NCBI GenBank assembly: GCA_020091685.1
Contig: CM034593.1
Span: forward strand, 46,473,388-46,537,387
Reading direction: 5' to 3'
From: Lutjanus erythropterus
Lineage: Eukaryota; Chordata; Actinopteri; Lutjaniformes; Lutjanidae
DNA length: 64,000 nucleotides
Within the stretch, counting starts at the first letter, position 1, and the number at the start of each line of letters is the position of its first letter. This document shows positions 19,901 through 43,985 of this stretch, piece after piece. A program made the position numbers and the translations under genes. The notes beneath the pieces were generated by a model. It was not told where the DNA came from and did not search any database. It saw only the letters and a list, made by a program, of their open reading frames with translations.

Positions 19901-19947
19901 TAACATTTCTTTGACTTCTTTTTGTCTTATGTAACAGGTATAATTTG

Positions 19948-20078
19948 GCTGCAACGCTGTTTTCCCGCTGAAGCTCTGGCAGTGTTTTGTGAACTGGAGA
20001 TCTTCACCCATCCTCACATTAGCACAGGGCTGAGTAGATATTGAGTGAAATTTCATTTTGGGTGAACTATCACTTTAA
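19948..20078 (+). mobile_element. Right arm of TTAAAGGG-type fold-back MITE
   Basis: 'gctctggcagtgttttgtga', then 'gatcttcacccatcctcaca' and a terminal 'gggtgaactatcactttaa' match in reverse orientation the left arm of the copy at 49634-50280. Only one arm is present. Confidence 0.7.
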
Positions 20079-20348
20079 ACTATATCCATGTAACCATGTT
20101 TTGCCTTTATTTTGAAAGTCAACCTGGATGTTGCATGTTTATCATTGCTAACTTGACCGCAGAGCCCTGCATATGTAAAACTGAGAGTAGGGGGTATTAC
20201 AATCCGAGATCTCACCGCTGACCGATCGTCTGGGGATTTCTAAATGCAAAGTAGCTGCTTGAACAGTGGCAAGAATGTCCACTTACAAAATGTGCATTGC
20301 TTTGTTTCAAACACACGCCTTACGGTAATGATGCTCTAACATTCTCCT

Positions 20349-22938
20349 CAGTAGAAAGCGCTTGACTTGTTTTAAGTTTCTACAACAAAAAGCTGGGAGA
20401 TTGTTGAAGTATTTAGACCTGTCTTGTGAGTCTAGTGGGGTTTCTACAGCATCACAGTTTGACCAAGCTGCCATGAGTTGGAACTACTGCCTCTGTCTGA
20501 TCAGAGCCACACACTTTAGAGATGATTCAAGCTCTTAAAAACAGACTACATGAACTGCGTTATTCTGGCGCCTGGCAGCTGATGTTCCTGACATGTCAGC
20601 AGAATTTGCCTCGCGTTGACGTTATTAAAATCCTGACCTTTCAGCCTCCAGCCATGAGGTCTCAATCCTGTTGATGACTCCATACAGCTCATCCAGGCCT
20701 TGGTTAGCGTTAGTGTGTGGCAGAATATACAGTCGACTGCAGTGAGAATGACTGATGTAACATTCCTTTTAAAACTGGTCTTTGAATCAGTAAATTAAGA
20801 AATTTATTTAGTAGTACCAACATTTAAACATCATTAAAATGTCTCCCCAAAAGAGAGTGGCTGAGAGCAGACAAAGTTCAGTATAATAATATGTAAAGTT
20901 CTGTCTTCATGTGATCACTTGCATTTTAATCACTGCAGGAGTTAGCATTTGGAGAATAAAGTTGAATTTCAGTCTTAGGACCAGGCATAACAAAACAGCA
21001 CTACTACTGATACTAATAAAATAAAAATAAAACAAAGGAGAAAGATTTTTTTAATTTCGTAATTTTTAGAATAAAGATTAAATGTTGAGAATAAAGTAGA
21101 GTAGAAATGTTTTCAACTCTATTCTTATCAGGAACACTCATAGAAGTGTGACAATTTTTTTATCTAACGCTGCTCTTTAATTCATGGAGCATGGTACTGC
21201 TGCAAGTGTTGATTTTCCACGTTGGTTCTGACTGTCCGGGATTCTTTGTTTCAGTGGTCTCATTTTCAAACAATATGGCACGGCGGATGAGCTCATATTT
21301 GGTCCCTACTATGATTAAAACTCCAGAAATACTGGATCCCACAGTTCCAATAATAAATTATCAAGGCAATAGTGACTTTAAATAGACCCCCTACATGCCC
21401 GTGGTTTGTAAAGCTGTCTGTCTTTAAAGGTTTGAGCTCAATCCAAGAGAACCTTAATGACATCATCAGACTTATTGTGTCAGACTTCAGAGAGCTCCAT
21501 TCAGAGCGGAGAAAACCTCGTACAATGCTTTTCACAGGCTCAGTCGTGAGTCCAGGTGCAAAGTAAACTGATTTTCGCATAAAATTGATGTAGTGCCCCT
21601 TTAAAGAATATTATGGCTCAGACCTTATCTCAAAATAGCAAATGGCTGAACAGGAGGATAAAACGGTCACCCTCTGGAAGTGCTGCTTTGCCAGTTCAAA
21701 GCTTCACCTTGTAACAAGCAGCAGCTTCAATCCAGAGCTTTAATCTGGAGCTAACTTAACCCTGAGACAAAGCTCAGTCACCTGCGTTGTGTCTCCTGGC
21801 TGAGAGACACGGTGAAAGGTTCGATGTCAGGTGTCACTGTCACTTTCAGGTATGATTTCATTTTGTCACAACCGGCGTCTGTCCCTGTCCTTTTCTGTCC
21901 TGTTGTATTTGGCTTTGAAAACTTTTTGATGGACATTTGTTTCTTATTTTCTTAGAAAAATATCTTCAGCATTTTGATAATGAATATTTTAGCACAGCTA
22001 ACAAGAACATGGAATAGGCTGCTTGATGCTTTAGCCTTAATTTTCCTTTTGCATCTGCATGGCAAGTGCTACATCAAAGACACTCAGGGAGAAATCTATT
22101 CATTCTTGAGAACTGGATTTTTACTCAATTATCAGTTATGCTGGAAAATCTATTATAACAAAAACACAAAAAAGGTCACATGCCACATATTGCAAAAGTG
22201 TCAAGCCATTCACGGGACAGAAGACCAAAACAAACACACAAATAACATCTCACTATTTCTGAGAAAGTGCAGCGAATGTCAGCTAATCAGGAAGGAAGCA
22301 ATGGTAAAATAAAAATTCACAAAATTTATGTTTTTATGGTCCCAAATGATTTTCTAGTTTCAGTAATTAACTACACAAAAAATGTCAAAAAAGTAAATGA
22401 ACTTGTTGAATCACGGTGTGAATATTAATGTAGCTGAGCTACTGCAACATATTTAATTCTATGTGAGCATTACTCCCATAGCAAAAATGCACAAATACAA
22501 AGATTTTGTACAGTGACTAAAATCTAATGACTTAAATGTTTTTCAAGGCAGGAAGCACATGTTCATGCACAAGTACAAATACTTTGTTTCTGTGCTTGTG
22601 TAGAGTTTTTAGGTATGTGTACTTTACCTTTATATTTTACTCCCTACATTTGTCGTTCGACTCCTTACATTTTAAAACAGGGTTGTTATTTTAGTTTTAA
22701 TGTATTTGAGAAAAATTACTGTGATGTTACATCAGTGCGGCGCTGTCTTACCAACATCAAGGCTGATTTCAACCTAAATAAATGGAACCAGAACACGGAG
22801 AAAAGATGATCGATTGGTGTATCCATCAGTGCATGTCACACAGCAGACATGAAAAGATGAAGCAGACAGAGAGGAGACTGGAGTGTGGAAAAAAAAGTAA
22901 GGGTTAGTTAGCTTTGCCCTGAAACAGTACATTCTCCT
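20349..22938 (+). repeat. Tandem segmental duplication, copy 1 (2590 bp)
   Basis: Copy 1 is followed directly by a head-to-tail copy starting at 22939. Both begin 'cagtagaaagcgcttgactt', and the same 9-base word 'cagtagaaa' recurs at 25486, immediately after copy 2. Copy 1 contains about 90 bases (around 20866-20957) missing from copy 2. No intact gene lies in the unit: the frame at 21974-22312 is broken in the sister copy and has no domain. The copies agree in essentially every block but differ by dozens of small length changes. Confidence 0.93.
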
Positions 22939-25485
22939 CAGTAGAAAGCGCTTGACTTGTTTTTAAGTTTCTACAACAAAAGCTGGGAGATTGTTGAAGT
23001 ATTTAGACCCTGTCTTGTGAGTCTAGTGGGGTTTCTACAGCATCACAATTTGACCAAGCTGCCATGAGTTGGAACTACTGCCTCTGTCTGATCAGAGCCA
23101 CACACTTTAGAGATGATTCAAGCTCTTAAAAAAACAGACTATATGAACTGCGTTATTCTGGCGCCCACTGGCAGCTGATGTTCCTTTGACATGTCAGCAG
23201 AATTTGCCTCGCGTTGATGTTATTAAAATCCCTGACCTTTCAGCCTCCAGCCATGAGGTCTCAATCCTGTTGATGACTCCATACAGCTCATCCAGGCCTT
23301 GGTTAGCGTTAGTGTGTGGCAGAATATACAGTCGACTGCAGTGAGAATGACTGATGTAACATTCCTTTTAAAACTGGTCTTTGAATCAGTAAATTAAGAA
23401 ATTTATTTAGTAGTACCAACATTTAAACATCATTAAAATGTCTCCCCAAAAAGAGAGTGGCTGTGAGTGAAGTTGAATTTTCAGTCTTAGGACCAGGCAT
23501 AACAAAAACAGCACTACTACTACTGATACTAATAAAATAAAAATAAAACAAAGGAGAAAGATTTTTTTAATTTCGTATTTTTTTAGAATAAAGATTAAAT
23601 GTTGAGAATAAAGTAGAGAGTAGAAATGTTTTCAACTCTATTCTTATCAGGGAACACTCATAGAAGTGTGACAATTTTTTTTTTTCCAACCGCTGCTCTT
23701 TAATTCATGGAGCATGGCACTGCTGCAAGTGTTGATTTTCCACGTTGGTTCTGACTGTCCGGGGATTCTTTGTTTCAGTGGTCTCATTTTTCAAACAATA
23801 TGGCACGGCGGATGAGCTCATATTTGGTCCCTACTATGATTAAAACTCCAGAAATACTGGATCCCACAGTTCCAATAATAAATTATCAAGGCAATAGTGA
23901 CTTTAAATAGACCCCACTACATGCCCGTGGTTTGTAAAGCTGTCTGTCTTTAAAGGTTTGAGCTCAATCCAAGAGAACCTTAATGACATCATCAGACTTA
24001 TTGTGTCAGACTTCAGAGAGCTCCATTCAGAGCCGGAGAAAACCTCGTACGATGCTTTTCACAGGCTCAGTCGTAGTCCAGGTGCAAAGTAAACTGATTT
24101 TCACGCATAAAATTGATGTAGTGCCCCTTTAAAGAATATTATGGCTCAGACCTTATCTCAAAATAGCAAACGGCTGAACAGGAGGATAAAAACGGTCACC
24201 CTCTGGAAGTGCTGCTTTGCCAGTTCAAAGCTTCACCTTGTAACAAGCAGCAGCTTCAATCCAGAGCTTTAATCTGGAGCTAACTTAACCCTGAGACAAA
24301 AGCTCAGTCACCTGCGTTGTGTCTCCTGGCTGAGAGACACTGTGAAAGGTTCGTATGCGGGGTGTCACTGTCACTTTCAGGTATGATTTCATTTTGTCAC
24401 AACCGAGCGTCTGTCCCTGTCCTTTTCTGTCCTGTTGTATTTGGCTTTTGAAAACTTTTTGATGGACATTTGTTTCTTATTTTTCTTAGAAAAATATCTT
24501 CAACATTTTGATAATGAAGATATTTTAGCACAGCCCCAACAAGAACATGGAATAGGCTGCTTGATGCTTTAGCCTTAATTTTCCTTTTTGCATCTGCATG
24601 GCAAGTGCTACATCAAAGACACTCCAGGGAGAAATCTATTCATTCTTGAGAACTGGGATTTTTTTTTACTCAATTATCAGTTATGCTGGAAAATCTATTA
24701 TAACAAAAACACAAAAAAAGGTCACATGCCACATATTGCAAAAAGTGTCTAGCCATTCACAGGACAGAAGACCAAAACAAACACACAAAAAACATCTCAC
24801 TATTTCTGAGAAAGTGCAACGAATGTCAGCTAATCAGGAAGGAAGCAATGGTAAAATAAAAATTCACAAAATTTATGTTTTTATGGTCCCAAATGATTTT
24901 CTAGTTTCAGTAATTAACTACACAAAAAATGTCCAAAAAAGTAAATGAACTTGTTGAATCACGGTGTGAATATTAATGTAGCTGAGCTACTGCAACATAT
25001 TTAATTCTATGTAGAGCATTACTCCCATAGCAAAAATGCACAAATACAAAGATTTTGTACAGTGACTAAAATCTAATGACTTAAATGTTTTTCAAGGCAG
25101 GAAGCACATGTTCATGCACAAGTACAAATACTTTGTTTCTGTGCTTGTATAGAGTTTTTTTTTAGGTATGTGTACTTTACCTTTATATTTTTACTCCCTA
25201 CATTTGTACGTTCGACTCCTTACATTTTAAAACAGGGTTGTTACTTTAGTTTTAATGTATTTGAGAAGAATTACTGTGATGTTACATCAGTGCGCGCTGT
25301 CTTACCAACATCAAGGCTGATTTCAACCTAAATAAATGGAACCAGAACACGGAGAAAAGATGATCGATTGGTGTATCCATCAGTGCATGTCACACAGCAG
25401 ACATGAAAAGATGAAGCAGACAGAGAGGGAGACTGGAGTGTGGAAAAAAAAAGGTAAGGGTTAGTTAGCTTTGCCCGCAAACAGT
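22939..25485 (+). repeat. Tandem segmental duplication, copy 2 (2547 bp)
   Basis: Copy 2 reproduces copy 1 in the same order. Compared with copy 1 it mainly has extra single bases, often in homopolymers ('gaccctgtc' for 'gacctgtc', 'ggggattc' for 'gggattc', 'ggataaaaacgg' for 'ggataaaacgg'). Substitutions are far fewer. Without the ~90-base deletion copy 2 would be about 50 bases longer than copy 1. This looks like noisy long-read sequence or a falsely duplicated haplotype. A real young duplication remains possible. Confidence 0.93.
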
Positions 25486-26600
25486 CAGTAGAAATGTCCT
25501 TCAGACGGTGACTTTTTACTTTTACACTCTCAGAGCCTCGTACTTTTTATTTCTGACTTTAATAAAGAATGATGTGAGTAAAGAATGTGTGCACTTTTAC
25601 CACCTCTCTGTATACGACTGCATGCATAAGAGAGACAATATAGTTTAAAACTTTTATTTATAAAATTATTTAAGAAGGACCGTATGTGCATGTTAGAGCA
25701 TTTTAGATAATCCACATGACTTCTCTGTGAGAGAACACAAGGAGTCAACTGTACATTCATTTAGATTCATATACATTTCCGCTGTCTGTCTTTATACAGA
25801 GCAGCAGAGACACTGCAGTGTGAATGACAGGGTGTGTGTGTGTGTGTGTGTGTGTGTGAGACAAAGAGAGAACACTGTCTGAGTGTGTGCCACACACTCC
25901 TTTCAGGAAACCCCTGCTGTGTATCTAAGAGGTGGGGGAGAGACTTTCCAAAAAGCAGCCAATCGCCGCACTCGATAAAAATACTATAACAGTCCCATTG
26001 GCTGTCCTAACAACCAATCGACCAGTTCAACCGCTTTGCCCAAATATGGACGTGCGGTAACCCGGTCACCATCAGATCACCAGGGGAACACTCTGGTTCT
26101 GTGATGATCTTGGCTGCACTGTTCTCTCCTCTTTTTCTTTCTTTCTGAGAGGAAATAAGGCAAAACTTGCATCATTTAAAAAGATGCGTTCTGTTTTCAG
26201 CTCAGAGCAGTGAGCAGGCCGGCATTTAATACATCAATATGGCAACCAGCAACCATAAATACTGCTTCTATGGTCAACCCTCAGATTTTGAGGTGTTTCT
26301 TTTCTTTTTTTTTTTTTTTTTTTACTCTTCAGTTCTGCTGGAAAATACATTTTGAAAGGCCAAATTCTTGGCTATTAAACCTTAAACAGGCCAGCCTCCT
26401 AGTACCTACATTTTTTAATATGTGCATTTAAATGTACAGAATGTATAAAACATAATTCTTACTTATCTTTGATTTAGAACGGCTACAGAGTCGACATGTT
26501 ATGGTTAAGACACATCTTATTACATTATTATTTAATGAATTTGTCTAAAAATAGAAAGTCCTCCCAGTGCTTGAGCAGTATTCCCATCTCCTTTAAACCA
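25486..26600. other. Non-coding DNA with (GT)n
   Basis: A GT microsatellite lies at 25832-25858 and a poly-T at about 26306-26325. Sequence around 25900-26100 is repeat-free and moderately GC-rich. No coding frame or RNA gene was recognised. Confidence 0.5.
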
Positions 26601-33061: not shown

Positions 33062-33689
33062 TTAAAGGGATGGTTCACCCAAATTCAGTCATTATCTACT
33101 CACCCTTATGCCAGCTGAAGGTCAGGTTTAGTTTTTTAGTCCACAAAACACAGCTGGAGTTTCACAGGAAAACAGTGTTTCAGAATCTCCCAAACAGTGG
33201 AAGTGAATGGTGACCAGTTTTCAAATGTAACAAAAGAGTAAAAGAGTAAAAACATAAAATGCCTCTATATTGCTCATCTGGCATAATTCAAGTCTCCTAA
33301 AGCCCCAACATACCAAGTTGACAAAAAATGTCATTTACTCCATGTTTTTAGTCTGAATCTTCACTGTAGATCCTCAGCTTGGAGCCACGTTCATGAACAC
33401 ATGCACACTGAACTGTGTGTGTGTTTATTGTGACGGTGTGTAAACAGCATGTCAGGACTTAAGGACACTTGGATTACATCCGACAAGCAGTATGGAGGCA
33501 TTGGTGTTTTTTTTCCAGTTGTTTTTTTCCATTTAAAAACTGGTCACCATTCACTTCAATTGTTTGAGAGATTCCGCAACACTGTCCAGCTTTGTTTTGC
33601 AGACTAACAAAATAAACCCGACCCTCAATCGGCATCTGAGTGAGCAAATTATGACTGAATTTTCATTTCTGGGAGAACTATGCCTTTAA
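33062..33689 (+). mobile_element. TTAAAGGG-type fold-back MITE, copy 1, 628 bp
   Basis: It starts 'ttaaagggatggttcaccc' and ends 'gagaactatgcctttaa', with TTAA at both extremes. The two halves are inverted copies for roughly 250 bases each. For example 'gtgaatggtgaccagttttc' on the left pairs with 'aaaactggtcaccattcact' on the right, and 'cctctatattgctcatctgg' pairs with 'acaagcagtatggaggc'. A transcript would fold into a very long hairpin. It is non-coding and similar to copies at 43991-44641 and 49634-50280. Confidence 0.88.
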
Positions 33690-42439: not shown

Positions 42440-42735
42440 ACAAAAAACAAATAAATACTGATATCATAATAATCTTTCTTCTAAACTTGGTCTTACTATA
42501 TTCCATCTTTTTTCATAGTCATTCGTTCTCCCCTGCCTTGCAGCAATAATGTCTTCTAACATAAAGTAATGTTTTAAAAAGGAAAGAAAACAGTGGAAAA
42601 TCAAACTTGATGCAAGCCATCTTTTGATAGTCCTCCAAAAAGGCGCCACATGAGGACAGAACCAAAATAAATGCAGCATGTCTTCAGTTTCAGATTTACA
42701 AAAACAACAGTTTTCATCCTCTTCTCTACTTCAAG
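42440..42735 (-). mobile_element. L1-like LINE, ORF2 C-terminal remnant
   Basis: On the minus strand the translation reads CCFCKSETEDMLHLFWFCPH then VAPFWR. This matches the Cys/His-containing C-terminal segment common to L1/Tx1-group LINE ORF2 proteins ('C..C...E...HLFW.CP....FW'). It lies just past the coding part of the reverse transcriptase, so the insertion is heavily 5'-truncated. The AC-rich stretch 42330-42440 would be its 3' untranslated region. Confidence 0.65.
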
Positions 42736-42739
42736 TCAA

Positions 42740-43985
42740 AAGCATTTTCCTTGTTGGCAGTATTTTGAATAGAAGTTTTAACTGAAAGTATCAGTAATCA
42801 GTTAGTTAGTTTGTATTATTGTGCAACTTTGCTAGTTAGTTAGTTTGGATCTAAACTGATTTAGTTTACTTCCTTGAGGTGGATGGAGGCAGAGACAGAC
42901 CAGCAACTGCAGGGTTAAATGACTGTTTTTGTTAAAGTAGTCTGGAGGGATTTAACAGCTTCACTTCACCCATCTGGTGGGAAAACTGACAGATTATGAT
43001 TGGTCGGTGAAATGGATCACATAACTTTGTGGATTATTATGCCCAGTTCAAAACCAATAAGGAATGTAATTAAAAACTTCTTTTTAGATGCTGACAAATA
43101 TACATAAGGTATTAAATTACATAGTTAACTTTTATTTGATCTCTCTAATATTTTCTCAATTAATCTTAAAATAAATCCTGTCACAATCTTGTTTGGTGGA
43201 AAAAAGGTCCAAACATGTAGAGCACACAAACGTAAGTAGACTATTTTCATTACTGATCCTCTCCTTCACGGCTATTGCAGCAGTTTTAGAGCTATGTGTT
43301 GTTTTGTCTGGTGTTTTTAGAAATGCCAAAAAAACTTGGTTTAAAAAACTACAAACTCTACATATTTGGTTTCAAATTAAAGAGGAAATTGTGTTTTGTC
43401 AAATCAGTCAGTGAACTGCAGCAACTTCCAGAGGGTTAAAAAGAGAAAAAATATACAGACTAAGTTGTATTTTGAAGTACCTTTCCAATACAACATGATA
43501 AACGCCAGGTTTGAATAGTTTTCACTGTGCATTAATGACTCAAATCACAGCCTTTCGATGTCGGCCATGAAATGTTTCTATTCAAAACAGAAACGATAGA
43601 GTGAAAGAGAGATGGCCGATCAGTTCATGGCTGTGGAGCAGCAGATAATAGTGGAGTTACTGAGTAACAACCAAACTAAGCAGGGCTAAACTCACACATG
43701 AAAACATGTCCTATTAGTTTGGACCTTTACATCTTTAACCTTGTAACTGTTTTGTCTTGGGGTCATACGCAGCGCAGAATAATCAGTTTCCATTCTTCCT
43801 GGACCCAGGAAAAGCCTTAATATTAAGCTGAAAGGCTTTTTATGATGAAGAAAAGGTAGTTTATCTTGTGAAGCTTCCTCTGAGTAAAAGTCCACTGTGG
43901 CTGCAGGAGAAGAGTTTTTTTTTTTTTTTAAGGATGTGCAGATAAATGGCTCATGAGCTGCTGTGATGGCAAAATGATACTTACT
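42740..43985. other. Non-coding DNA, no recognised feature
   Basis: AT-rich; a poly-T tract at 43914-43930. No repeat pairing or credible coding frame was found. Confidence 0.45.

Follow-up and report, generated by a model that had tools for sequence, protein, structure and literature searches.

A near-identical 2.6-kb tandem pair in a Lutjanus erythropterus assembly: a probable false duplication

False duplications are divided into two types that differ in origin (PMC8081667): (i) heterotype, in which two haplotypes are both kept, and (ii) homotype, which stem from sequencing errors or from contig-boundary overlaps that come to lie in tandem, with a gap. Homotype duplications are described as being about as long as a read (PMC8081667), and CLR reads are given a length of about 17 kb (PMC9516828). 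A gap between the members of a pair is one of several characteristics by which false duplications are recognized, used “in some combination” (PMC9516828). According to the same source, falsely duplicated sequence amounted to 4 to 16% in three earlier vertebrate assemblies. Polishing by alignment of short reads is described as leaving errors in repeats (PMC8812927).

The tandem pair described here lies in a 64,000-base stretch of the Lutjanus erythropterus assembly GCA_020091685.1, hereafter the window, and resembles each of three described kinds of duplication in part (Table 1). Like homotype false duplications, in the terminology of the Vertebrate Genomes Project, it consists of near-identical tandem copies whose differences are mainly error-like indels, in a layout that a contig-boundary overlap would yield; unlike them, it has no N gap between the copies, and its 2.6 kb are short relative to the length of long reads. 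The allele-like level of substitution (15 isolated in 2498 columns, 12 of them transitions) and a block indel recall a heterotype false duplication, that is, a retained second haplotype, but small indels outnumber substitutions, which would be unexpected from haplotypes alone. Head-to-tail order and high identity are shared with recent segmental (tandem) duplications, yet the indel balance is opposite to that of 18 control pairs.

Table 1. Positions of the duplicated unit and associated features, numbered from the first base of the window
Feature	Position	Strand	Remarks
Copy 1 of the duplicated unit	20339-22928	+	2590 bases; blastn
Copy 2 of the duplicated unit	22929-25485	+	2557 bases; blastn
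Copy 1/copy 2 junction	22919-22948	+	...AAACAGT joined blunt to ACATTCTCCTCAGTAGAAA...; no N run
Copy-1 block without copy-2 counterpart	20868-20958	+	about 89 bases (82 + 7)
Interspersed repeat in the unit	22571-22861; copy-2 counterpart about 25120-25415	+	polarized 7 differences; genome search and alignment
Second interspersed repeat in the unit	21014-21128	+	used for polarizing
Third interspersed repeat in the unit	21433-21604	+	used for polarizing
Fourth interspersed repeat in the unit	22277-22447	+	single indel ambiguous
Left-flank interspersed repeat	19943-20078	+	about 260 bases from copy 1; two private single-base indels
10-base direct repeat TCAGTAGAAA bracketing the structure	25485-25494, identical to 20348-20357	+	

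The window belongs to a contig of 47.6 Mb, in an assembly of 937.6 Mb in 444 contigs. Its comparison with itself by blastn yields a single long, near-identical tandem pair, arranged head to tail and 93.3% identical with gaps counted. An initial annotation of this DNA had already recognized the head-to-tail duplication, which blastn confirms, and had set its left boundary at 20349, ten bases too far to the right: ACATTCTCCT, found at 20339-20348 and 22929-22938, is part of both unit starts. Full-length matches to the unit occur at only two places in the assembly, as judged from two genome searches (best 40 of 2250 and best 40 of 104 candidates). The remaining 40 matches from the first search all fall within the last 370 bases of the unit (best 40 of 2250), and the remaining 39 from the second are short stretches of 58-174 bases (best 40 of 104). 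Neither a third copy of the unit nor an alternative haplotig appears among the matches listed in these searches (best 40 of 2250, best 40 of 104). As in false duplications, the copies are near-identical and adjacent on one scaffold, at a locus that is otherwise single among the same best 40 of 2250 and best 40 of 104. The idea that the whole unit is one mobile element is unsupported; among the matches listed, recurrence is limited to parts of the unit.

The junction is blunt, with the AAACAGT that ends copy 1 followed directly by the ACATTCTCCT that begins copy 2, and contains neither microhomology nor N. Overlapping contigs joined end to end would produce a blunt junction of this kind. No N is present in the 264 kb formed by the window and 200 kb around it, hence there is no N gap between the copies; such a gap is among the false-duplication characteristics of PMC9516828, a source that, in its description of them, does not demand every feature, and an earlier gap at the junction could have been closed since. 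As for the direct repeat that brackets the structure, about 2.4% of random 60-mer pairs share at least 9 bases by chance. A crossover between its two occurrences was considered as a simple cause of a real duplication and rejected, because it would not give the observed junction, which carries ten extra left-flank bases.

Global alignment of the two copies comprises 2498 aligned columns with 25 substitutions and 46 gap events, so that the counts initially put forward, at least two dozen length differences and about ten substitutions, were both too low. The extra bases lie in copy 2 in 41 of the 46 gap events and are missing from it in five (two-sided binomial p = 4e-8). Two of these five form one block of about 89 bases (82 + 7) that is absent from copy 2 and had been overlooked. 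MAFFT, run on the coordinates of the initial annotation, gives 36 mismatched columns and places 37 gaps in copy 1; copy 2 has 5, among them the shifted 10-base end.

Many of the differences had been placed in homopolymers, and indeed 31 of the 45 events shorter than 20 bases in the global alignment extend one. Length differences between the copies increase with homopolymer length: among comparable copy-1 runs of 1, 2, and 3 bases, 5/1257, 5/269, and 4/90 are longer in copy 2, followed by 9/42, 3/12, 1/3, and 0/1 for runs of 4, 5, 6, and at least 7 bases, respectively. Only three comparable runs are shorter in copy 2 than in copy 1. With the 89-base block left aside, the gap events, 44 in number, are evenly spread along copy 2 (KS p 0.63). 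The isolated substitutions are those left after removal of 10 that are in contact with an indel or another substitution, or at most about four bases away from one; they amount to 0.6% of columns, and their share of transitions exceeds one third (p 3e-4), as does that among all substitutions (16/25, p 0.002). These substitutions resemble those that arise naturally between haplotypes or between young duplicates, and lie beneath a layer of indels; their pattern seems compatible with a heterotype false duplication. The error-like indel pattern appears to fit residual sequencing errors that distinguish the copies, as in the homotype. The case bears marks of both types; an artefact is supported, not proven.

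The balance of gaps and mismatches was compared with that of other repeat pairs in the 264 kb, which were collected by megablast of this sequence against itself. The controls are 18 pairs of at least 150 bases, exclusive of the duplication itself and of nine of the ten rows of one tandem array. With some members common to several pairs, so that the pairs are not independent, the controls together carry 720 mismatches and 157 gap openings, as opposed to 25 and 45 for the duplication (odds ratio 8.3, p 5e-16). The highest value among the 17 non-array pairs is 0.55 gap openings per mismatch, and the array row, at 94.8% identity, has 28 mismatches and 4 gap openings. Substitutions would outnumber indels in a recent tandem duplication, and here the reverse is found. 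Gap-friendly blastn counts 27 mismatches and 63 gap openings for the duplication, while each of the 14 other distinct rows has fewer gap openings than mismatches (352 mismatches to 141 in all). The contrast weakens when four control pairs are scored as in the global alignment, which is also gap-friendly: they have 70 mismatches and 56 gaps versus 25 and 46 in the duplication (odds ratio 2.3, p 0.007), and in one of them gaps exceed mismatches (6 vs 5). By side, the gaps are divided 24/32 in these four pairs versus 41/5 in the duplication. The indel excess on which the initial annotation had based its argument thus holds against the 18 control pairs, but the ratio alone is weaker than supposed. 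The tandem array lies downstream of the window (L027:2001-2866) and has shifted self-matches of up to 94.8% identity, one row of which is the array control.

Interspersed repeats within the unit were used to assign differences to one copy or the other. Both copies were aligned with 8 relatives of 22571-22861, which are 67-79% identical, and further alignments used 7, 6, and 3 relatives of 22277-22447, 21014-21128, and 21433-21604, respectively. Together these cover 15 differences, in small numbers, with distant relatives and incomplete coverage of the sites. Eight indels could be called. Six of them originated in copy 1, as losses at 21062, 21507, 21576 (two bases), and 22654 and as gains at 21548 and 22739; the other two are copy-2 gains at 22606 and 22635, each in a T run. 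Two indels are ambiguous, one at 21098 and one at 22386, the latter leaning to a copy-1 loss but lying beside a variable A run. The five polarized substitutions are derived in copy 2 at 21062, 21524, and 22600 and in copy 1 at 22713 and, with less certainty, at 22689. The repeat at 22571-22861 (about 290 bases) itself has at least 40 relatives at 69-84% identity in the assembly (best 40 of 2250 candidates).

These assignments bear on which copy is at fault. The differences had been read as uncorrected insertions in copy 2; as a description, extra bases in copy 2 is accurate, but in four of the six such events that were called it is copy 1 that has lost bases. The view that copy 2 is the raw one was accordingly rejected as too strong, and copy 1 appears likelier to be the poorer sequence because six of the eight called indels arose there. 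Homopolymer runs of at least 5 bases point weakly in the opposite direction, being average in copy 1 (z 0.06) and high in copy 2 (z 1.3); as a means of polarizing they are too weak, and they are of no help for the flanks either. Polarization shifts blame between the copies and leaves the balance between an artefact and a real duplication unchanged.

Outside the unit, the left-flank repeat was compared with 8 relatives in the 264 kb, 71-93% identical, of which the nearest is 93.3% identical. It has an extra C seen in none of the 8 and is without a base present in 7, the eighth having that place deleted. This one element hints that poor sequence may take in the left flank as well as copy 1, as in a poorly corrected left contig end.

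The best explanation is a false tandem duplication created by assembly, with a probability of roughly 0.76. One locus of about 2.6 kb would be represented twice: copy 1 would close a left contig and copy 2 would open a right one, and these overlapping contigs would have been joined end to end, unmerged. The left contig end would have been poorly corrected and have lost bases, mainly in single-base runs. The right contig may derive from the other haplotype, and differences between haplotypes may account for the substitutions and perhaps for the 89-base indel. We infer that a contig boundary with low coverage lies here, that haplotypes are involved, and which sequencing technology was used, deletion-rich error being typical of nanopore reads.

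An assembly artefact had been proposed from the outset, and this much is supported because the indels are in excess over the 18 controls, one-sided, and dependent on run length; the choice of copy 2 as the faulty copy is not borne out. The predominance of copy 1 among polarized indels, the two private indels of the single left-flank element, the blunt junction, and the lack of a third copy among the matches listed likewise support a false duplication. Evidence against it includes (i) the lack of an N gap in 264 kb, (ii) derived indels in copy 2 as well (2/8), (iii) the 70 to 56 of the four controls under gap-friendly scoring, (iv) the 10-base direct repeat that brackets the structure, (v) homopolymer statistics that lean weakly toward copy 2 as the faulty copy, and (vi) the size of the unit, which falls short of the roughly 17 kb of a CLR read, homotype duplications being described as about read length (PMC9516828, PMC8081667). 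On the preferred reading, the duplication holds no biological novelty.

The main competitor is that the tandem duplication is real and young but its bases were poorly corrected; though unlikely, this deserves a minor share of belief, because the trouble that short-read polishing is described as having in near-identical repeats (PMC8812927) would account for uncorrected indels whether the duplication is false or real. The transitions among the isolated substitutions (12/15, as in natural variation), the derived changes in both copies, the gapless junction, and the bracketing 10-base repeat all suit it. However, the junction contains ten extra left-flank bases that a crossover at that repeat would not produce, and failed polishing of repeats alone would not put indels in the left-flank element, a single one, outside the unit. 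False duplications were also common in earlier vertebrate assemblies, at the 4 to 16% reported for three of them (PMC9516828).

Far less probable is a real duplication that diverged naturally while some local process added or removed bases in one copy. The even spread of gap events (KS p 0.63) and the concentration of polarized events in one copy would suit such a process, but the 18 control pairs show the opposite balance, including the array row at 94.8% (28 mismatches, 4 gap openings), and we know of no process of this kind. Least credible of all is that the tandem duplication is genuine and very young and that a local mutational process, directed at homopolymers, added and removed dozens of bases in one of its copies.

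A false tandem duplication at this locus would call for caution in counting duplications in the L. erythropterus assembly. Two checks that need no reads are useful here: (i) comparing gap openings and mismatches with those of repeat pairs elsewhere in the region and (ii) using the unit's own interspersed repeats to polarize indels, which overturned the first guess on the faulty copy.

The Pfam scan of all six frames of the window, in 8-kb chunks whose edges could cut a domain, gave no family match above threshold, and Rfam gave 0 matches at gathering thresholds. By these two scans the unit holds no gene or RNA family; with no gene found, there is no reading frame from which the correct copy could be recognized. 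Two patterns were also scanned exactly against IMG/VR, with 0 matches. Elsewhere in the window, a weak zf-RVT match below the Pfam cut-off (42635-42817, minus strand, E 8.6e-5) is probably a LINE remnant. An inverted repeat at 43991-44238/44385-44641 (83.7%) is related to 33081-33689, and these sequences look like mobile elements.
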